Shown: one piece after another, positions 2,670 through 12,255 of the stretch
Layout of the letters: each line of letters begins with the position of its first letter
How positions within the stretch are numbered: position 1 is the first letter of the stretch
Assembly (NCBI GenBank): GCA_017940955.1
Contig: JAGAXP010000158.1
Coordinates: 1-12,255 of the forward strand
Direction: 5' to 3'
Length of the DNA: 12,255 bases
Source of the DNA: Oribacterium sp.
Lineage (GTDB): Bacteria > Bacillota_A > Clostridia > Lachnospirales > Lachnospiraceae
The notes under the pieces: generated by a model
What the model was told of the DNA's origin: nothing
The model's input: only the letters and a program-made list of their open reading frames with translations
Databases searched by the model: none
Position numbers and translations under genes: made by a program

Positions 2670-2700
2670 ATGTATCCGATCATACATTAATCTACTTTTT
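2670..2700 (+). terminator. Weak hairpin with T-run between convergent genes
   Basis: ATGTAT (2670-2675) pairs with ATACAT (2682-2687) around a six-base loop, and a T-rich stretch ends in six Ts by 2701. It sits 16 bases after the polyferredoxin stop, so it may end that operon. The stem is short and AT-rich, so this is tentative. Confidence 0.35.
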
Positions 2701-3465
2701 TATCAGTAGTTCCTTTCCTTCAAAAGCAAAGGCAAGCTTTATTATCTTGTCTTTGTCGAGTCCTGCTTCCAGAAGCTCGGTTTCATATTTTTTGTCTTCG
2801 ATTTGTTTCAATGCCACATCGCAAAGCTCATCAAGGGTCTTGCCCTTTTCACTTCTGCGTTTTGACTTAAACTCGATGATCACAGCATTATCCTTTTTAT
2901 CCTTCGGTCGAAGCATGACATCATAACGACCAAGGCCACTTTCACGGTTTGACTTTATCTCGTATCGGCCACGCAGCTCAACAAGAAGTCCGATTACAAG
3001 ACCGTGATAGAAGTTTTCCGGAGCCGCTTTCCCACTTCCATCAAAGGTACTTATCATACTTTCGCAGATTTCTAATAATGTATCCGTCATGTCATCTATG
3101 TTGCCTTCCAGAAGTGCTTTTACGAAATAACTGTAATTTCCCCCAGCATTTTCAAACCACCTTTTCACAAGTATGCTGAAAGTGACCATAACCTCATAAT
3201 TAGTGAGTTTTAATTCATATTCTGCCACCCCATTGATGTCTTGAACAGAAATAGCTTTGAGATAACCGCTTGCATACAGAAGACTCCAGACTGCTTTTTT
3301 ATTTCCGTCCATTTCGCCGAAAACAAGCTGCTCATCTATCTCTGATTTTACACTGCCACCCTTCAAAAGCTCTTCAAAAGCCTTCTTTATCTCAATGCTC
3401 CCTTCTCTCACAAGCTTTGACACCAGTGAATTAGAGCTTGTATTAGCCCAATACGGCTCATATTT
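2692..3465 (-). pseudogene. 5'-truncated AAA-ATPase-like / PD-(D/E)XK nuclease family protein
   Basis: The readable frame starts after a TGA at 3466-3468. It begins mid-protein with 'YEPYWANTSSNSLVSKLVRE', the conserved sequence at the end of the AAA-like ATPase region in the widespread AAA-ATPase-like/PD-(D/E)XK family (the domains I know as PF09820 and PF08011). The remaining ~258 residues contain the whole nuclease-like part. Counting from the GTG at 3421-3423, these include 'ESGLGRYDVML' with D168 and 'VIIEFKS' with E184 and K186, the D...ExK core, then a 'VALKQIEDKKY' helix. Family members usually run to over 500 residues, so the ATPase half is lost. The GTG would give a 243-residue product, but it lies inside a conserved motif and has no ribosome site, so I call a remnant. 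It converges on the polyferredoxin operon. The family's function is unknown and its genes often occur in many copies. Confidence 0.8.
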
Positions 3466-3684: not shown

Positions 3685-4470
3685 ATGGGTATTATAAGTG
3701 CTATTTTATCATTACCTATAACGGTAATTCTTATATTGTGGATACTTAAAATGAAAAAGGATGATCCATTTCCAAAGGGAACCGTCCTGCGTACTCTTCT
3801 ATTCGGAATGTTGAGCACGATTGTTGTCTCGATTCTTACTGTTGGGGCCGGAATCATTAATTTGATAAAACTTATAGGGCTTGATGGAATCAATAAGCTT
3901 ATGACAGCTGCTACATCAGGAAATGAGGCTGCGGTCAAAGATATCATAGACAAGCTGAATTCAGGAATTGATAACTCCTTTGGCATTATGTTTATAAGGA
4001 CTTTTCTGGTAGTAGGACTTGTAGAAGAAATATTCAAGTTTCTGGTTATGAAATCATCCGTGAAAAGAATAAAAAATAGAATGTGTTGGCTGGATGTCGT
4101 TTTTTGTGGAGCTCTTGCAGGTCTCGGTTTTGAACTATATGAGGACATAATGTACTCGGGTAACGGGTTAGGCGTTGTCTTATTACGGTTATTAACACCA
4201 TTTCATTTTGTTTTTGGGGTACTTATGGGTTACCTGTATGGAAAAGCAATGTTTACAAAGAACAAAGTATGGATATTACTTTCTGTTTTGGCACCGGCAT
4301 TGATTCATGCTCTTTTCGACACATCGGTGCAGATGCTGCATTATAATGAGGACATATTCTATATAACATTTGCGGTCACAATACTTCTGATAGCAGCTTT
4401 TGTATTTGAAGTAATCATGATAAGAAAATGGTATAAGACAAAGGAACTTGATATAGATCTTCTGTCATAA
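3685..4470 (+). CDS. PrsW-family intramembrane protease-like protein
   Basis: A 261-residue protein with about seven to eight membrane segments. The family signatures are visible: VEEIFKFL (E114, E115, K118), GFELYED (E150, E153), the histidine of PFHFVFG (H174), and IHALFD (H208, D212). These correspond to the EExxK, FxxxE, H and HxxxD blocks of PrsW, a membrane metalloprotease-like family related to CAAX/Abi proteases. The founding member in Bacillus subtilis makes the first cut in the anti-sigma factor RsiW. PrsW usually has asparagine after the second-block glutamate; here the block reads ELYED. No anti-sigma or sigma gene is next to it, so the substrate is unknown. The insert at residues ~65-100 between the second and third spans is hydrophilic and probably forms a loop. 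The gene stands alone, starts right after element B and ends before a strong terminator. Confidence 0.82.
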   Translation: MGIISAILSLPITVILILWILKMKKDDPFPKGTVLRTLLFGMLSTIVVSILTVGAGIINLIKLIGLDGINKLMTAATSGNEAAVKDIIDKLNSGIDNSFGIMFIRTFLVVGLVEEIFKFLVMKSSVKRIKNRMCWLDVVFCGALAGLGFELYEDIMYSGNGLGVVLLRLLTPFHFVFGVLMGYLYGKAMFTKNKVWILLSVLAPALIHALFDTSVQMLHYNEDIFYITFAVTILLIAAFVFEVIMIRKWYKTKELDIDLLS

Positions 4471-4682: not shown

Positions 4683-6710
4683 CTATTCTGTTAATAATCC
4701 ACTGCCTCTTTCATACAGATAATTTGAGCCAAAACCATATGTGCCATCTTCCAACTCAGTAAGTTCAGGTACATTTACCGGAAGTTTACCCTTTGGTTTA
4801 TTGTAACCGAAAATAGTTTCGATAGCGGCGATGATGTTTGCATTAATGGCACCTTTACTAACTCCGTCAGAAGTTTTATCTGTAGGATCTATATTTAGTC
4901 CCGAACCCATATACGAAAGAACTATACCATCGGCATCACTATAGACCGCTGCATCATAAGGAAGATTTTCACTCAGAAGGATAAATTTACCTCCATTATC
5001 ATGAACGTCCTTCAGTGCAGAATGAAGCGCTATGTATTGTGGATTCTCCTTGTCATAAAAAGCGCTGCCTGATGCATATGAAAATGCAATAACTATATCA
5101 GCACTTGATATTTTATTTTTCATATCATCTGTATAATTAAGTTTTACATCTGCAGAAGAATCATAATAATACTCAACACTTATATTACTATCTTCAGAAA
5201 TAAGACCTTCTTTCTTCATTTCATCAATAGCATAATTAATTGTGCATGAATCGTTCTTTTGTCTTCCAAGGAAAACAATATCCTTTTTATCTTGTGCTAA
5301 AGGAATAAGATCTTCATCATTCTTCAACAAAGTTATTGCTTTTCTGGCAATTTCCATCTCATCCTCATGATGTGCTTTAGAGCCTACCTCTTCAATATGA
5401 TTTTCAGAATTGGTTTTGCCTTCACTCTCATCTATGCTTCCGCCGTCAATATCAAAAATATGATATTTATTTTTCATTACCAATATACGTCTTACACTCT
5501 CATCAATTCTCTTTGAGCTGATTTCTCCAGACTTAACCAATTCAGATATTCCATTTATATAGTCATCATAATAGGCAGCAGCATCTTCATTATTAAGGTC
5601 TGTCGGTATCAAAAGAATGTCTACACCGGCATTAATGACTTCTCTGGCTACATTGATACCGTATTCCACAGTACCTTCCTCGCCTTTTACAAGTCCCGCA
5701 GTTCTTATTGCTTTCATTTCCAATGCATCTGTAACAACTACTCCATTAAAGCCCAGATCGTCACGCAAAATGTCAGTGATCATCTTCCTGGACATAGTGG
5801 CCGGATAATATCCTTTTGTAACTCCATCGCCAAATGTTACTTCATCATCAATCAATGGATAGGTAATATGTGCAGTCATTATCATATCCGCACCATTATT
5901 TATTGCTTCTTTAAAAGGAACCAATTCAACTTCTTTTATTTCGTCATATGTCTTTTCAACTGAAGGAGTCCCTATATGACTGTCAGTCTCAGTATCACCA
6001 TGCCCGGGATAATGTTTATATGTCGCAATTATATTTTTTTCCTTCAATCCATCTGCAAATGACTTACCGAGTTTTGCAACTACCTCCGGATCATCTGAAA
6101 ATGATCTTGTTCCAATGACAGGATTAGAAGGATTATTGTTTACATCGATATCCGGTGCATAATCTGTATTAAAACCTAGCGCTGCTAATTCTTCTCCTAT
6201 TATCTCTCCTGTTTTTAAGGCATTGCCTTCGGCATCCGTTGTTGCGCCTATTGCCATATTTCCTGTCATTCTGGTTCCGGATGTGAGTCTTACGACAATC
6301 CCACCCTCTTCATCCAAAGGCATAATATAAGGGATATGAACCGAAACGTTGTCTGACTGTTTATTATTATCCTGAAGATCCTTCACAAGATTATATACCT
6401 GTTCATTATCTATGATATTAGAACCAAAAAGAATGACACCACAATACTGATGCTTTTGCAAAGCGTCTCTTAGTTCCGAATTGTCATCTATATCTGTGAC
6501 GTTTTTACCATCCCAGGTTCTTATGGCCGGTATAATCATCTGAGAAATTTTTTCATCCATTGTCATGTTTGAAATAATTCCATCCATTTCAGAACCTTCT
6601 TTTTTTGAATCTTCTTTTTTTGAACATCCACTTAAACATAGAGCACTTATCAAACTGCCCATTATGATTATTCGTGATAATATCTTACGATTAATATGAT
6701 TCTTTTTCAT
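4683..6710 (-). CDS. Glycoside hydrolase family 3 lipoprotein, beta-N-acetylhexosaminidase (NagZ-like)
   Basis: A 675-residue secreted lipoprotein; numbers here count the two extra residues of the frame from 6716. A basic start, a hydrophobic stretch and the lipobox LSGC (Cys31) form a lipoprotein signal. Residues ~45-415 are the GH3 barrel: PLDEEGG (134-139), then KHYPGHGDT followed by the TDSH dyad (D245, H247), which is typical of NagZ-type enzymes that use an Asp-His pair as acid/base, and VVTDALEMKAI with nucleophile D330. After an acidic, low-complexity linker (~424-452) comes a second alpha/beta domain (~455-640), as in Bacillus NagZ (YbbD). It should remove terminal GlcNAc from peptidoglycan fragments or other glycans at the cell surface. 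The GGAGGA at 6717-6722 abuts the ATG at 6716 but is correctly spaced from the ATG at 6710, so the latter is the start. Confidence 0.88.
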   Translation of the reverse strand: MKKNHINRKILSRIIIMGSLISALCLSGCSKKEDSKKEGSEMDGIISNMTMDEKISQMIIPAIRTWDGKNVTDIDDNSELRDALQKHQYCGVILFGSNIIDNEQVYNLVKDLQDNNKQSDNVSVHIPYIMPLDEEGGIVVRLTSGTRMTGNMAIGATTDAEGNALKTGEIIGEELAALGFNTDYAPDIDVNNNPSNPVIGTRSFSDDPEVVAKLGKSFADGLKEKNIIATYKHYPGHGDTETDSHIGTPSVEKTYDEIKEVELVPFKEAINNGADMIMTAHITYPLIDDEVTFGDGVTKGYYPATMSRKMITDILRDDLGFNGVVVTDALEMKAIRTAGLVKGEEGTVEYGINVAREVINAGVDILLIPTDLNNEDAAAYYDDYINGISELVKSGEISSKRIDESVRRILVMKNKYHIFDIDGGSIDESEGKTNSENHIEEVGSKAHHEDEMEIARKAITLLKNDEDLIPLAQDKKDIVFLGRQKNDSCTINYAIDEMKKEGLISEDSNISVEYYYDSSADVKLNYTDDMKNKISSADIVIAFSYASGSAFYDKENPQYIALHSALKDVHDNGGKFILLSENLPYDAAVYSDADGIVLSYMGSGLNIDPTDKTSDGVSKGAINANIIAAIETIFGYNKPKGKLPVNVPELTELEDGTYGFGSNYLYERGSGLLTE

Positions 6711-6882
6711 TCCCATTCCTCCACCAACGTTTTTTTGTCTTAGAACTACTATATAATCTGAAGAACGTAGCGTGCCTATTTCGCATTTACTGCATTTTCT
6801 TATCTAAATGACATTGGGTTGCCTTGGGGTGCTTTTTCTGTCATCATGCTCCCTCTGTTATCTCTTTAGCGAGTTTCAATCC

Positions 6883-8670
6883 TTATAAATATATGATCAT
6901 ATTATTACTGTTGAATGCATTAAAATATGACATTTCCTTAGCCATCTTAGTCACAAGCCTGATTCCGATATATTTTTCCGGATCACCGTCATTATGGGCC
7001 ATGTAAAAATCTGTAGGGTTAAATTGATTACAATAGTCACGTAAGGTAAGACATATATCTCCGTCTTTTGTATAAAGCCTGTAATCTACAAACACTTTCT
7101 TTCCTGCCTTTGGTTTGCCATGAATAATGATATTTCCTGCCATCTCCTCAACAAAGCAGCCCATATGCCTGGCCTTTTTGGCATCACATCCATGGGCAAG
7201 GCAGAATTCTTCTGCGTTTTTGCTCTCTCTTACCACATCTTCTATACTTTCCAAGAAGGCATAGCTGTTTTCCCCCTCCCTGCCTCCAAAGCCCTCCGGC
7301 AGGAACATAAAGTCCTCAAGATGGCATGGCAAGCGCTTTAAGTGAACGCAGATTATAACAAATATCAGCAAAATCAGTACTGCTTTACCAACTGCAATGG
7401 ATGCAAGTACACCCTTAGATCCCCAGAAACTGCCCATTGTCAGTGCAATAATCACAGGGATTATAAAGCGTTCTCCAAAACTAAAGAGATTGACCAAAAG
7501 TCTATTTCGAATTCCTTGAAGATAATACTGAAAAGTAACAAGCAAGGTATCCATAACAAGACTGATTGCCATACACCTGAGTGAAAAGGCAGAAAACATT
7601 ATAACTTCGGGATCAGAGGTATAAAATCCAGCTATGAGATCTGCAAAAATGAACAATATGGCCGCCACCGCTCCGGACAATACAATTGCCATCTTTACCG
7701 AGTACGCAAACAGGTTCTTTAACCCGTTTTTATCATTTGAGCTGTAATAGATTCCAACAATAGACAAAAGAGCTTTTCCCATGCCCAACCCTATGCAGAA
7801 CATAAGTGTATTCAGATCATTTTGCATAGCTCTGGCCGCTACTGCAGCCCCTGTTAACGCAACACTCAGATTAATCCTGCTGATAAACAGATCCCTGAGT
7901 ACAGTTGCAAATTTACGAACAAGTGTAGGCATGCCCTCTTTTGCAATTTCAAATAACTGTATGAACCTGAGATTACTAAATGAAAATCTGAAGTAACTGT
8001 TTTTCCTTAAATAAAAGCTTAGCAGGAAAATCAGTTGTATATAAAAAGAAATGGTGGTTGCTATCCCCATCCCTATAATGCCACCATGAATAAAAAAAGC
8101 ATTTACAAGATCTCCGGCAACGTCACTGATGCAGAGTATAAAAGCTGAAATCGTAAAAAATGTCTTTCCGTTATCCATTACCACAAATGGTCCAATGATC
8201 TGAATAACCATTACGGCTGGGATACCAAACATATATCCGTAAATGTAGTCCTTCATCCCGTCATAAAACTTCGGATGACTCTCAATTGTTACTCCGCAGA
8301 TTTTAAATATAACATCCGGGAATGTCGTGCACAGAAAAATAAAGAAAAACGCAGCCAGAATAGTAATGATAATTGATATGGAAAACAAAGCATTTGCCTC
8401 TTTACGTTTTCCTTCACCCACAAGACTTCCACAGACAACCTGACTTCCGGTGGAAATAAAACCGGAAACCAGTGCCAGCGTCGAGACAAACGGCCCCACC
8501 AGTGATATAGATGATAAAGAATCAGGCCCCAGGAATCTGCTGGTGATAATTCCATCTATAATAGTTGCAACGACCCCGGCAACCTGAGAAAAGATCATTG
8601 CGACAGCTGCAGAGAAATACATACTTGAAATAACATCATTATTTTTTTTTCTAAATCCGACTTTTTTCAT
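6883..8670 (-). CDS. MATE-family transporter fused to a C-terminal HATPase (anti-sigma kinase-like) domain
   Basis: A 595-residue fusion. Residues ~12-445 are a 12-span MATE exporter of the NorM/DinF type, with features such as 'IDGIITSRFLGPDSLSSISL' near residue 38 and 'GSQVVCGSLVGEGKRKEA' near 75. MATE proteins exchange Na+ or H+ for drugs or metabolites. A hydrophilic hinge follows at ~446-475. Residues ~475-595 are a HATPase_c_2 domain like SpoIIAB/RsbW: N-box 'EEMAGNIIIHG' with E509 and N513, then 'LRDYCNQFNP' in place of the usual D-x-G-x-x-F (D545 kept, glycine replaced by C547), and a late 'GIRLVTKMAKEMSY' helix. The domain probably faces the cytoplasm, where it could phosphorylate or bind the STAS domain encoded two genes upstream. 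The preceding stop and this ATG are eight bases apart, with GAGAG before the ATG; a TTG at 8682 is the other possible start. Confidence 0.85.
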   Translation of the reverse strand: MKKVGFRKKNNDVISSMYFSAAVAMIFSQVAGVVATIIDGIITSRFLGPDSLSSISLVGPFVSTLALVSGFISTGSQVVCGSLVGEGKRKEANALFSISIIITILAAFFFIFLCTTFPDVIFKICGVTIESHPKFYDGMKDYIYGYMFGIPAVMVIQIIGPFVVMDNGKTFFTISAFILCISDVAGDLVNAFFIHGGIIGMGIATTISFYIQLIFLLSFYLRKNSYFRFSFSNLRFIQLFEIAKEGMPTLVRKFATVLRDLFISRINLSVALTGAAVAARAMQNDLNTLMFCIGLGMGKALLSIVGIYYSSNDKNGLKNLFAYSVKMAIVLSGAVAAILFIFADLIAGFYTSDPEVIMFSAFSLRCMAISLVMDTLLVTFQYYLQGIRNRLLVNLFSFGERFIIPVIIALTMGSFWGSKGVLASIAVGKAVLILLIFVIICVHLKRLPCHLEDFMFLPEGFGGREGENSYAFLESIEDVVRESKNAEEFCLAHGCDAKKARHMGCFVEEMAGNIIIHGKPKAGKKVFVDYRLYTKDGDICLTLRDYCNQFNPTDFYMAHNDGDPEKYIGIRLVTKMAKEMSYFNAFNSNNMIIYL

Positions 8671-8678
8671 AGGCTCTC

Positions 8679-9533
8679 TCAAGAAAAAACTTTAAGTACT
8701 TCATCACGAACTTTTTTACAATACTCTTCTGAAGCATGCTTCGAATATAACGCCTCAAATCGTAATTTAATAAGGAGTATTACCTTATTAAGTTCCTGCA
8801 GTTGTCTTTCTTTTTCCTCCTTTGTAACACCATTAAAATATTCCTTTTCAAAAGAGTCCCAGACAGCTTCTCTTGTTTTCCTGTCAAGTCCGTTGAAGCT
8901 ACTGACCTCTCCCGTTACGGATTCCGGGGATTCAAAAAAGCTAAAATGCAAAACTCCCAGGTCAAACAGTGGAGAACCAACAGAAAAGCTTCCCATATCA
9001 ATGAGCATTATTCCGTCACGGGTCTGCATAATATTATTCGTATGAAAGTCTCCATGGGTATAGGTCTGCGCCTCATCCAATTTCTGCATATAGTTCTCAA
9101 CATTTTCTCTGGTCTTTTCATCTAAATAGGTTGCATGCGGCAATGATTTTGCTATTTTTTCAGAAGACCTTGGAAAATCCTTTTCTTTTACCGTAGCGTT
9201 ATGGATCGATAGTGCAAGATGTGCAAGCTCCTGACCGATTTCCTCAGACCTTTCAGGACTCTCCTGAAGCTGCTCAGACAAAGTCCTGGCACTTATCATC
9301 TCATAGATAATTCCATACCTGCCATTAACCGTTACAGCGTCAAAAGATATAGGTGTCGGAATCCCTGCCACAAAGGCGGTTCTTGCATTTCGTTTTTCTA
9401 AAAGAGCTCGCTCCTTTGGAAATCCATCATAATATAACTTCAGAATTTGGTCTTCTCCCACTCTGAAGCATTCACCTGTTGCCCCTTTTGCAAAAGGAAC
9501 AAGTCCATCAATCTCTATCTGCTTAAAATCCAT
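8679..9533 (-). CDS. Aminoglycoside-phosphotransferase/choline-kinase-fold kinase, TIGR02172-like
   Basis: A 284-residue protein-kinase-fold phosphotransferase. The N-lobe has 'FAKGATGECFRV' as a nucleotide loop and the lysine of 'ILKLYY' (K32). The C-lobe has the catalytic loop 'HGDFHTNNIM' with D162 and N167, and 'LIDMGSF' with the metal-binding D179, in the pattern of APH/choline kinases. I match it to the family first listed as a Fibrobacter paralogous group (TIGR02172); its substrate is unknown. The core is clearly homologous to the kinase half of the gene upstream, so the pair arose by duplication. The start at 9533 is chosen because GAGGGGGA lies six bases before it; a longer frame to 9575 overlaps the upstream gene and has no such site. 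It is the middle gene of a three-gene minus-strand operon and probably works with, or is controlled by, the STAS and HATPase domains next to it. Confidence 0.82.
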   Translation of the reverse strand: MDFKQIEIDGLVPFAKGATGECFRVGEDQILKLYYDGFPKERALLEKRNARTAFVAGIPTPISFDAVTVNGRYGIIYEMISARTLSEQLQESPERSEEIGQELAHLALSIHNATVKEKDFPRSSEKIAKSLPHATYLDEKTRENVENYMQKLDEAQTYTHGDFHTNNIMQTRDGIMLIDMGSFSVGSPLFDLGVLHFSFFESPESVTGEVSSFNGLDRKTREAVWDSFEKEYFNGVTKEEKERQLQELNKVILLIKLRFEALYSKHASEEYCKKVRDEVLKVFS

Positions 9534-9543
9534 AGCTTCCCCC

Positions 9544-10698
9544 TCAGCCCACAAGTTTTTCCAATTCACTGACACTGTCTTTTATCCTGATATCCCTAAG
9601 CTCCGGCAATCCAATGCCCAGACTGGCTATCAGGAACATAAATCTTATAAGTCCCAACGCTTTTATTGTCCCTGACAACTTTATGAAATCATCACTATTT
9701 AAATCAGAATAATAATGTTTCAAAGTGTCATAATAGAGTTTTTCAGCAGCATATTTATTCAGATTCAGAAACTTTTCTGTATTATCCGGTTCATGAACAT
9801 CGAAAGTAATATAGGTCATGTACAATCCTGCAAATTCAAATATGGGATTTCCCTTGCTAAGGGTATCCATATCTATAATTATTAGTTCATCTGATGTCAT
9901 CATGATATTTTTCACCTGCAAGTCTCCGTGTATAATGCATTCTTCAACCGGAATAGAATTTATCTTATCCAATAACCTGTTATAAAGATTCCCGGGAAGA
10001 TACTCCCTGATTGCCATAAGATTATCAATATACATATCCTCAATCCTTGGCAGATTGATTTCTGATGCATTAACTGAATGTATACTCTTTATCAGTTTGG
10101 CATATCTTATGCAAAAATCATCTATCCTGCTTATATCTTCAGCTAAAAAATCATTACAGTTTTGGGCCTTTAACAGCTCAAAAACTGCGCCATATTTATC
10201 TCCAACCTTCACGATATCAAAAGGAATAGCTGTAGGCACCCCCAGCCAAAAAGCTTCTTTTGCCTTTTGGACTTCATCTTCAATAGAGGCAGTATCCTCT
10301 GCTCTATCATAAACTTTTATTATGGTGTCGCTATCTATTCTATAGACGCTTCCCATTGCCCCTTTTCCTATCATAGGGCATCCATCTATCGAGATATTCC
10401 TCATTTTCTTTTTGACATCCAATAAGTTAGTAAAACCTGTGGTTTCAAAAATATCATAAATTTCCGGGGAAACATTTCTGACAGTTAGTTTTTCTTTTCT
10501 TTTTTTACTAAGTTTTAAAAGAAAACGCAGACCTGCGCTTGAGATATACGATAGGTTTTCTGCATCAAATAAAAAGGGCGTATCATTCTTTTGCAAAATA
10601 TCCTCAGTTTTCCTCTCTATTTGCTCCACATTATCTGAACTGATTCTTCCCTCAAGGCAAATTATAAGCTTATCGCCTTCAATAACGCTCGTAATCAT
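9544..10698 (-). CDS. STAS domain (anti-sigma antagonist) fused to an APH/choline-kinase-fold kinase, TIGR02172-like
   Basis: A 384-residue fusion. Residues 1-96 are a STAS domain: 'LIICLEGRIS' strand, 'FDAENLSYISSAGLRFLLKL' with serine 54 at the place of the phosphorylated serine of SpoIIAA (Ser58; the aspartate before it is replaced by S53), and 'FETTGFTNLL' near the end. Residues ~104-384 are a kinase: 'IGKGAMGSVYRI' loop, K128 in 'IIKVYD', catalytic loop 'HGDLQVKNIM' (D259, N264) and 'IIDMDTLSKGNP' (D276). The catalytic set is complete, so an active kinase is likely; the substrate is unknown. It is the first gene of the operon, preceded by a strong AAGGAGGG, with only 10 bases to the next gene. 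The STAS half is the expected partner of the HATPase domain on the MATE protein. Alternatively it regulates its own kinase half. Confidence 0.85.
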   Translation of the reverse strand: MITSVIEGDKLIICLEGRISSDNVEQIERKTEDILQKNDTPFLFDAENLSYISSAGLRFLLKLSKKRKEKLTVRNVSPEIYDIFETTGFTNLLDVKKKMRNISIDGCPMIGKGAMGSVYRIDSDTIIKVYDRAEDTASIEDEVQKAKEAFWLGVPTAIPFDIVKVGDKYGAVFELLKAQNCNDFLAEDISRIDDFCIRYAKLIKSIHSVNASEINLPRIEDMYIDNLMAIREYLPGNLYNRLLDKINSIPVEECIIHGDLQVKNIMMTSDELIIIDMDTLSKGNPIFEFAGLYMTYITFDVHEPDNTEKFLNLNKYAAEKLYYDTLKHYYSDLNSDDFIKLSGTIKALGLIRFMFLIASLGIGLPELRDIRIKDSVSELEKLVG

Positions 10699-10818: not shown

Positions 10819-11166
10819 ATAAAGCTTGTAATCGGAAGCTTTACTGTTGATTGCACGAGTGATGATATCGATCCCATGACAAAGGGAATGCTTATGATGT
10901 GGGGAGTATTTTCTGAGATGGAGAGGGATATCATATCACAGAGGGTAAAGTCCGGGATGCAGAACGCAAGGGCAAAAGGGAAGAAGATAGGCAGGCCCAA
11001 GATGGATGCTTCAAATCTTCCGGATAAGCTCTACAAGTATTATCCGTTGTACAGGTCCAAGCAGCTTACAGCTACAGCTTTCGCAAGGGTAGTAGGATGT
11101 TCAAGGAAGACCATATACAATTACCTTTCTCATTATGAGAATACTCACGGTAACGAGTATGTATAA
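10819..11166 (+). pseudogene. 5'-truncated serine recombinase (resolvase/invertase type)
   Basis: The frame opens just after a TAG at 10816-10818 and reads 'VIGSFTVDCTSDDIDPMTKG' with no start codon before the ATG at 10876. It then gives 'GVFSEMERDIISQRVKSGM', 'ARAKGKKIGRPK' and a terminal helix-turn-helix ('TAFARVVGCSRKTIYNYLSHY'). This is the second half of the resolvase catalytic domain, the long E helix and the DNA-binding domain; the N-terminal half with the catalytic serine is missing. Full-length relatives are about 190-210 residues and ~115 remain. A 96-residue product from 10876 could in theory be made and bind DNA, but the ATG lies inside a conserved motif and lacks a good ribosome site. 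It is a scar of a mobile element next to the operon promoter region. Confidence 0.85.
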
Positions 11167-11191
11167 TTAACTTTGTATGTACTTGCTATTA

Positions 11192-11227
11192 GTTGAACGA
11201 TGGTCGAAAAATTGACCCTCGTATTTG
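11192..11227 (+). repeat. 36-bp direct repeat, left copy
   Basis: Identical over 36 bases to 11771-11806. It contains an inverted pair GGTC-8-GACC (GGTCGAAAAATTGACC). It follows the serine recombinase remnant by 25 bases. It is probably the end of an insertion sequence or a small repeat family. Confidence 0.85.
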
Positions 11228-11259: not shown

Positions 11260-11706
11260 TCATTTCCATTGTTTTATTATTTGCGATATATCAGTACATT
11301 TGTCTTTTTCAAATAACCCCAGTGCTTTTACATCTTCTGGAGATATTGTGTCATCATCCCATATATCATCAACATAGGGTGCTGAGTTCTCCTGCTTGAT
11401 CCACATGGAAACCTTAGCGTCCAGAAATTCATTATCATCCAGCATATCTTCAAGTATGTTTCCTGCCACTTCACCGTGTTCCATGCTTATCCACTTTTTT
11501 CGCACAGAAGGATTCAATCCACCCCAGTCTATCTCATCATTGACCTGCGGCTTCTCAATCATATAATAAGTGCCGTCAGGAGAACTTAGGATTATGCACT
11601 CTACGCCAGATATAAAATTACCAGACTCTTTATCAGACTTTTTACATGATGTGAGGCACAACAACAGCATTGTCATTACAACCAATGTAATTAATCTCTT
11701 TTTCAT
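11260..11706 (-). CDS. Small lipoprotein of unknown function
   Basis: A 148-residue protein with a clear lipoprotein signal: MKKR, hydrophobic residues 5-17 and LTSC with the lipid cysteine at 21. The mature part is acidic and hydrophilic ('ILSSPDGTYYMIEKPQVNDE', 'WISMEHGEVAGNILEDMLDD', 'YVDDIWDDDTISPEDVKAL'). It would be tethered outside the membrane. I do not recognise the family. The start at 11706 is chosen because GGAG lies six bases before it; a frame four codons longer (11718) has no ribosome site. The gene lies between the two 36-bp repeats. Sixteen bases upstream ends another frame (KVAKKIDYKKTLEEL, stop at 11723-11725), which suggests it once followed a gene now lost. Confidence 0.7.
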   Translation of the reverse strand: MKKRLITLVVMTMLLLCLTSCKKSDKESGNFISGVECIILSSPDGTYYMIEKPQVNDEIDWGGLNPSVRKKWISMEHGEVAGNILEDMLDDNEFLDAKVSMWIKQENSAPYVDDIWDDDTISPEDVKALGLFEKDKCTDISQIIKQWK

Positions 11707-11722
11707 GGCCGTCTCCATATTT

Positions 11723-11875
11723 CTACAATTCTTCCAGTGTCTTTTTGTAATCTATCTTTTTAGCGACTTTGTTGAACGATGGTCGAAAAATTGACCCTCG
11801 TATTTGAAAAACAGGCTCAGGCAGCACAAACAGACCGGGAATCATGAGCACAGTTGTATCTACGCAGGTGTTCAT
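11723..11875 (-). pseudogene. Interrupted gene downstream of the HD-like gene (chimeric 50-residue frame)
   Basis: An ATG at 11875 directly abuts the stop of the HD-like gene and has GGAGG eight bases upstream, so a gene really began here. It reads 'MNTCVDTTVLMIPGLFVLPE' and then enters the right-hand 36-bp repeat (residues ~24-35). It emerges in-frame into 'NKVAKKIDYKKTLEEL' and stops. The first part is GC-rich like the HD-like gene and the last part AT-rich like the lipoprotein gene. The frame is best seen as the start of one gene joined across the repeat to the tail of another. Neither original gene is recognised. Confidence 0.55.
11771..11806 (+). repeat. 36-bp direct repeat, right copy
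   Basis: Identical and in the same orientation to 11192-11227; the flanking bases differ on both sides. It marks the exact border between AT-rich accessory sequence to the left and GC-richer sequence to the right. Confidence 0.85.
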
Positions 11876-12255
11876 TCACTCAACCTCCATAATCTCCACC
11901 CGCTCCGGCGCAATTCGCAGATCGGAGCGCTTCTCTACTACTTTGCGGCAGTAATCCAGCGTCTCCTGTATTTTCCCGGCAAGCTCTTCAATCAGCTCTT
12001 CAAATCTGGGCTCCTTAGGCTTTACATGCAGCACAATCGCATTCTCCGTCACCTCAACCATACGAATGGACTCGTGGAGGCCGAAGGCATCGATGTCCAC
12101 CTGTTTTGTCAGGGCAGACGTATCAAAAAGCAACTCCGGATTACGATCCACACCCACATCAATCTCGTCCGCCAGACGCAGCACTGCGGCAAGGTACGAA
12201 GTACGGATGACTCCATCCGATGTCTGAATGTCGGGATACTCCGTCTCGTCGAATA
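11876..12255 (-). CDS. C-terminal part of an HD-domain-like protein (continues beyond the window)
   Basis: The frame is open from the right edge (first complete codon at 12253) to the TGA at 11876-11878, about 126 residues. Near its start it reads 'IRTSYLAAVLRLADEIDVGV', followed by 'DRNPELLFD'. This resembles the helix with the last metal-binding aspartate of HD-type phosphohydrolases and the segment after it. The rest is a mixed alpha/beta tail with 'VTENAIVLHVKP' and a long helix 'FEELIEELAGKIQETLDYCR'. Members hydrolyse phosphoesters or nucleotides, but the catalytic HD pair lies outside the window, so activity cannot be judged. Base and codon use is GC-richer than in every other gene here, which suggests that it belongs to the flanking older chromosome segment. 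The HD assignment rests on one motif. Confidence 0.55.
   Translation of the reverse strand, partial: FDETEYPDIQTSDGVIRTSYLAAVLRLADEIDVGVDRNPELLFDTSALTKQVDIDAFGLHESIRMVEVTENAIVLHVKPKEPRFEELIEELAGKIQETLDYCRKVVEKRSDLRIAPERVEIMEVE

Follow-up and report, generated by a model that had tools for sequence, protein, structure and literature searches.

In textbook accounts partner switches regulate sigma factors, and the locus considered here raises the question of what the parts of such a switch may do when they are joined to a membrane exporter and to kinases of an uncharacterised family, for which a protein search shows thousands of relatives. The window, i.e. the whole stretch of DNA analysed (12,255 nucleotides of contig JAGAXP010000158.1, assembly GCA_017940955.1, from an Oribacterium sp.), carries an operon for a STAS domain fused to an APH-fold kinase, a second APH-fold kinase and a MATE exporter ending in a HATPase_c_2 domain. 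A module of this type recurs across genomes of some gut and rumen bacteria, and the linkage of its pump and kinase is conserved, though not universal. If the contact between switch parts is real, the module provides the first testable context for the TIGR02172-like kinase family and illustrates a way in which reversible phosphorylation of a protein could let bacteria control a secondary transporter.

The operon and its domains

The features of the operon are given below (ORF, open reading frame).

9544..10698, minus: STAS-APH protein, 384 amino acids (ORF list, Pfam, NCBIfam)
about 10408-10698, minus: STAS domain, residues 1-97 of the STAS-APH protein
10537-10539, minus: Ser54 of the STAS-APH protein, candidate phosphoserine
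about 9547-10392, minus: TIGR02172-like APH-fold kinase, residues about 103-384 of the STAS-APH protein
8679..9533, minus: second TIGR02172-like APH-fold kinase, 284 amino acids from ATG 9533 (ORF list: GTG 9575)
6883..8670, minus: MATE exporter with C-terminal HATPase_c_2, 595 amino acids from ATG 8670 (ORF list: TTG 8682)
6886..7278, minus: HATPase_c_2 tail, about residues 465-595, with E509, N513, D545 and G569 kept and Cys547 at the place of the DxG glycine

The ORF list extends the three, all on the minus strand, over 9544-10698, 8679-9575 and 6883-8682. Judged by the sequence, the likelier start of the second kinase is the ATG at 9533, 10 nt past the STAS-APH stop and behind AGGGGGAAG, and that of the MATE-HATPase the ATG at 8670, 8 nt past the stop of the second kinase. 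Pfam scores exceed curated cut-offs for STAS (40.7 bits) and APH (52.8) in the fused protein, for APH (61.5) in the second kinase, and for MatE (87.9) and HATPase_c_2 (PF13581, 35.5 against 27.4) in the pump, whose MATE membership is borne out by both the MatE repeats and the MATE fold. With both kinases the best NCBIfam model is TIGR02172, at 130.2 and 98.2 bits, below its curated cut-off of 228.2. The STAS domain passes PF01740 (40.7, cut-off 22.6) and PF13466 (31.6, cut-off 29.2) and stays under the NCBIfam cut-offs (TIGR00377, 50.2 versus 53.45; TIGR02886, 31.3 versus 114.75); in a PDB sequence search its profile matches SpoIIAA and RsbV chains. Ser54, which we take to be the equivalent of the SpoIIAA phosphoserine, is invariant in 13/13 aligned STAS-APH proteins, as are HGD257-259, N264 and D276, and the phosphorylatable STAS serine is kept in all 53 proteins of a larger alignment.

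Scanning of 11 window ORFs with Pfam and NCBIfam gave no sigma factor. A preliminary description, made from the DNA letters, had called the minus-strand trio with these domains, the position of Ser54 (it sits in YISSAGLR) and the lack of a sigma factor nearby, all correctly. That the operon consists of chance ORFs is ruled out, because relatives with the same fusions are numerous. A search for RNA features gave none at gathering scores.

Conservation of the linkage between pump and kinase

The case for a module is carried by a scan made through the pump alone, by changes of gene order, by fusions and by a tree. Protein search gave 145 pump relatives (E up to 0.001; details are from the 120 matches listed). 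Alignment A2, scanned against species genomes, picked out 64 loci, found through the pump alone, in which ORFs were called and then searched with profiles of six domains; a single-protein scan of genome contigs yielded no relative, and a broad alignment no conserved stretch. Pumps with at least 38% identity are termed window-like and those with less distant, and at least 1.5 kb of flank was required on each side; the 19 window-like and 9 distant pumps counted exclude the window, pumps with shorter flanks and matches of 400 columns or fewer. Within three genes of the 19 window-like pumps, a STAS-APH gene is present in seven cases, a gene for an HD-CE protein in six, any TIGR02172-like kinase gene in 11 (two of these pumps lie in tandem in L017 and have a single kinase between them), and any switch gene in 13, versus none for the nine distant pumps. 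In a positional control from which MATE genes were omitted, as were unassigned ORFs shorter than 100 amino acids, kinases account for 19 of the 145 genes within three of window-like pumps versus 1 of 170 further out, the corresponding figures for distant pumps being 0/85 and 0/67. Lack of co-occurrence had been put forward earlier as the finding that would tell against the proposal; it was not borne out, kinases being far more frequent close to window-like pumps than at a distance from them in these loci. One part of the earlier claim with less support is the exact gene order, to which we return.

Order and composition vary among the linked loci, which are from records labelled Lachnospiraceae, Oscillospiraceae and, with a kinase lacking STAS, Synergistaceae. 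In four (L007, L009, L015, L035) the order is pump, STAS-APH, HD-CE, and in L012 and L026 the pump is followed by a single HD-CE-STAS-APH protein. Among Synergistaceae a kinase without STAS follows the pump in L016, L017 and L019, with none adjoining in L018; nor does a kinase lie next to the pump in Fretibacterium L022. After the pump or kinase in L017, L019 and L022 come an unassigned gene of ~260 amino acids and a PAS-guanylate/adenylate cyclase gene (the cyclase typed in L017). Of a further set of 12 loci, six of them apparently already among the 64, three have a kinase next door, only L153 being new. One distant pump outside the nine counted, L055, has STAS and HD-CE next door. The distant pumps of L038, L041-L046, L050, L052, L061 and L063 sit among proteins typed in L043 as AMP-ligases, and some of these loci have MFS transporter and LPG_synthase-GNAT genes, a setting that differs from that of the window-like group.

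In a tree built from 32 STAS-APH proteins, a single clade of 18 (support 100/99) holds 15 of the 16 that are pump-linked; L060 counts as linked through a terminal HATPase piece where its contig stops. The pump-linked label changes 5 times on the tree versus a mean of 11.0 in shuffles. Two other members of the clade, L113 (G145) and L129 (G009), are from genomes with MATE-HATPase and HD-CE elsewhere (L133 holds such a pair; in G009 the distance is 19.6 kb, within one contig), and for the third unlinked member, L114 (G021), near a contig end, no pump match was obtained at the threshold used. Fusions add to this. STAS, APH and HATPase_c_2 form a single chain in L020, L075/L131 and L117, with STAS and SpoIIE genes beside it in L020 and L117; all 120 relatives listed have the three domains (precomputed Pfam), and all 8000 scored candidates matched, of which not every one need be such a fusion. 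By profiles, L115 has MATE-HATPase-HD-CE in one frame, with STAS-APH adjoining on the opposite strand, and in L118 a SpoIIE-HATPase gene adjoins STAS-APH. Further afield, L079:910-2388, beside a SpoIIE gene, encodes a RelA/SpoT-type HD domain fused to a TIGR02172-like kinase (NCBIfam), and L078:1138-2619 appears by eye to encode the same fusion, both proteins being of 492-493 amino acids. In L130:4247-15580 (G009) two STAS-APH and two APH genes are clustered, none of them beside a MATE-HATPase.

Every part of the module is present in Butyrivibrio NC3005, where the order is STAS, MATE-HATPase, HD-CE, STAS-APH, HATPase, SpoIIE (L033), again with no sigma factor among the genes scanned around it. 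At the thresholds used, SpoIIE, HD-CE and full STAS-APH each occur once in the genome (G001) and HATPase_c_2 over the cut-off twice, every one of them at C17 46.9-53.3 kb; the switch parts are apparently single-copy. Upstream lie a nonribosomal peptide synthetase (NRPS; L033:2-8356) with condensation, adenylation, methyltransferase, carrier and thioesterase domains, and carrier-protein, epimerase-like and oxidoreductase genes. Since NC3005, entered in its record under a strain name without any MAG label, holds all parts, apparently once each and beside the NRPS, the question is directly testable there.

A draw of 150 genomes from the family of the NC3005 genome, with the best 8 pump candidates per genome scored, gave 19 pumps, 18 of distant type, with a switch gene within three genes of six (L115, L133, L140, L143, L149, L150); the 19 omit L119, found via its kinase, and L139 is not scored as linked, its nearby HATPase being a histidine kinase. 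Pumps occur in 12 of the 150 genomes and strong kinase matches (below about E 1e-60, some without STAS) also in 12, with six shared (Fisher 4.8e-5, uncorrected for kinship; the six include the query genome, and G111, whose match lacks the HATPase part, is omitted). Among 10 whole genomes chosen from linked loci, HD-CE of the window type is in six, single copy in each (which was unknown when they were chosen), and in five of these it is within 1.5 kb of a MATE-HATPase domain. A Fisher comparison of 25 MATE-HATPases with 92 plain MATE frames (from the 150 matches listed) in these genomes was dropped as largely circular: two of the 25 are not MATE-HATPases, and 8/9 kinase-linked and 5/5 HD-CE-linked pumps came from preselected loci.

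The window itself has part of an HD-CE gene upstream of the operon on the same strand, which, like the stand-alone STAS, HATPase and SpoIIE genes of other loci, had escaped the preliminary description.

11876-12253, minus: HD-CE gene, C-terminal 125 residues, cut by the window end (Pfam; 74% identical to HD-CE of L007)
11768..11806: 39-nt direct repeat, copy 2, 97% identical
11260..11718, minus: small predicted lipoprotein gene between the 39-nt repeats, no Pfam family above cut-off
11189..11227: 39-nt direct repeat, copy 1, containing the palindrome GGTCGAAAAATTGACC
10876..11166, plus: serine recombinase fragment (end of resolvase domain and helix-turn-helix), between HD-CE and the operon

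The piece scores 28.1 bits with PF24391 (cut-off 27), over profile columns 178-260 only; full-length relatives tested score 113.9-128. In L007, HD-CE is two genes after the pump. The recombinase fragment and the repeat-flanked lipoprotein gene, likewise absent from the preliminary description, look like remains of an insertion that split HD-CE from the operon. The HD-CE protein is probably a phosphohydrolase opposing the kinase; it has no match in a PDB sequence search, and in open-licence papers the titles found for 'HD-CE' look unrelated.

The HATPase tail and explanations for the module

On its profile match the tail of the pump belongs to the HATPase_c_2 family; it probably still binds nucleotide, and it may or may not transfer phosphate. 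Among 52 aligned pumps, E509 and D545 are kept in all 52, G569 in 51 and N513 in 50; the retention of E509, N513 and D545 argues for nucleotide binding. The DxG glycine is another matter, with Cys in 40 and Gly in only two (the window has D-Y-C), and its loss makes kinase activity of the tail doubtful. Glycine is present there in 25/25 STAS-APH-HATPase proteins and in many of the distant pumps of the loci (as DDG or DNG). In the alignment, the ATP-lid region of the pumps is also short by four columns when set against the HATPases that stand alone or are fused. The HATPase of a fused relative matches RsbW and SpoIIAB in the PDB. So does a pump profile with one stand-alone and one fused HATPase added, a match that rests partly on the two added rows, since the pump-only profile gave none; the window tail as single query gave no PDB match either. 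(In a further search with the pump, the list is filled by MATE and related flippase chains and bears only on the MATE part.)

The explanation that we favour, tentatively and with a little less than even confidence, is of a sigma-factor-free relative of the RsbV/RsbW/RsbU switch with its output at the membrane, on exporter and kinase. The RsbW-like tail of the exporter would bind STAS, either as part of the STAS-kinase or as a protein on its own; Ser54 would be phosphorylated by this tail or a different RsbW-like kinase, and a SpoIIE-type phosphatase, its gene lying close by or elsewhere, would reset it. Depending on the state of Ser54, the STAS-kinase would be docked on the exporter or released, and docking would tune the exporter, the TIGR02172-like kinase or both, HD-CE reversing the product of the latter. 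We infer the binding, the phosphotransfer and whichever direction of control and substrate go with them, along with the HD-CE activity, from the observed domain content, linkage, fusions and conserved motifs. A bolder version, which we regard as possible but distinctly less secure, has a kinase/HD-CE phosphorylation cycle docked on the MATE exporter, the larger STAS-APH-HATPase sister family (SpoIIE-adjacent in L020 and L117) following the same logic without a pump, and the Cys547 site giving an altered, possibly redox-sensitive, nucleotide sensor.

Several results weigh against the switch explanation. Foremost is the loss of the DxG glycine, which on the alignment is the main weakness of the mechanism first proposed, phosphorylation of Ser54 by the pump's own HATPase being weakened by it. 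The pump HATPase profile alone finds nothing in the PDB at E up to 1, and at E up to 0.01 the window tail has no matching NCBIfam model, RsbW and SpoIIAB equivalogs included. No phosphatase gene (SpoIIE/PP2C) was found among the window ORFs scanned. Six of the 19 window-like pumps and all nine distant ones have no switch gene within three genes, and the exact gene order of the window recurs only in L001, L002 and L003. Conversely, STAS-APH occurs without a MATE-HATPase nearby in 13 of the 32 tree rows, besides three single-chain fusions. In the 10 whole genomes, just one of 12 pumps outside preselected loci (L167) has a kinase within 4 kb and none has HD-CE, the figure for plain MATE frames being 0 of 92.

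In one alternative the pump HATPase would be a dead or ATP-sensing dock, another RsbW-like kinase (stand-alone or SpoIIE-fused) phosphorylating STAS and the pump only binding STAS or the kinase. This we consider rather doubtful, though the missing glycine, the shortened lid region and the retention of DxG by the stand-alone HATPase of L033 speak for it, as do the presence of SpoIIE in all 10 relatives' genomes searched (at the locus itself in L033) and of HATPase_c_2 proteins other than pumps in such genomes; the near-complete retention of E509, N513 and D545, favouring nucleotide binding, is less easily squared with a dead domain. An alternative built on the suggestion of the preliminary description, that the kinases phosphorylate a small molecule which MATE exports, and adding HD-CE to dephosphorylate it and STAS-HATPase contact as no more than a tether, seems improbable. 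It can draw on the match of the APH fold to small-molecule kinases, on the NRPS with methyltransferase and carrier domains that adjoins L033, and on the AMP-ligase and MFS genes near some distant MATE-HATPases. However, the 11 window ORFs scanned include no biosynthetic genes adjoining the operon, and a kinase family fused to STAS, HATPase and RelA/SpoT-type HD domains, and found near SpoIIE, is in a signalling setting. Even less probable, in our estimate, is a neighbourhood without contact, of genes that share their regulation or inheritance and may be mobile in rumen bacteria, the STAS of the STAS-kinase working with a separate HATPase. Window-like pumps are indeed patchy (E up to 1e-130), being in 4 of 79 genomes of the genus of one Butyrivibrio genome and in 11 of 81 of the family of the L017 genome, with only the query genome positive among 391 of a class and among 148 of a family (few candidates per genome scored throughout, 3 for the 391), and the recombinase fragment beside the operon is pertinent; yet the linkage outlasts both change of gene order and gene fusion.

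Known systems and other window genes

Like RsbV/RsbW/RsbU and SpoIIAA/SpoIIAB/SpoIIE, the module has a STAS domain with a phosphorylatable serine, a HATPase_c_2 domain and, in the loci of some relatives, SpoIIE. It differs in having its HATPase on a MATE exporter and without the DxG glycine, its STAS fused to an APH-fold kinase, an HD-CE part, and, as far as the window genes were scanned, no sigma factor. With CcrZ the window kinases share the APH fold, although the CcrZ model is weak on both (21.3 and 14.7 bits, cut-off 400); unlike CcrZ and other APH-fold kinases, theirs is a system with STAS fusion and MATE-HATPase linkage. MlaFB is not known to have a HATPase_c_2 tail or a kinase fusion. 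There too a STAS domain is tied to a membrane transporter, which the STAS protein regulates and which, unlike the window pump, is of ABC type (PMC7367683). Closer in lacking a sigma-factor output are BtrU/V/W and SypA/SypE, whose STAS-HATPase-type parts have non-sigma targets, a secretion system for BtrUVW, according to passages of PMC8256260. The main text of that source has 'mate', 'efflux' and 'phosphotransferase' 0 times, and draws no MATE or efflux link for Btr/Syp there; 'transporter' occurs 11 times, in the relevant passages for STAS-carrying SLC26/SulP transporters (PMC8256260). A search of open-licence PMC papers gave no description of a system with the layout of the window, in line with what had been stated at the outset, and we rate the module as a variant of partner switching without an earlier description found in that literature.

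The GH3-type gene at 4683-6716 was considered as a module part and rejected, its protein being in no group of at least three near pumps. Outside the operon, 324-1031 and 1187-2653 on the plus strand encode a TlpA/DsbE-like thioredoxin and a polyferredoxin membrane protein, and by Pfam 2692-3423 is a PDDEXK_9 nuclease-like gene and 3685-4470 a gene for a PrsW-family intramembrane protease.

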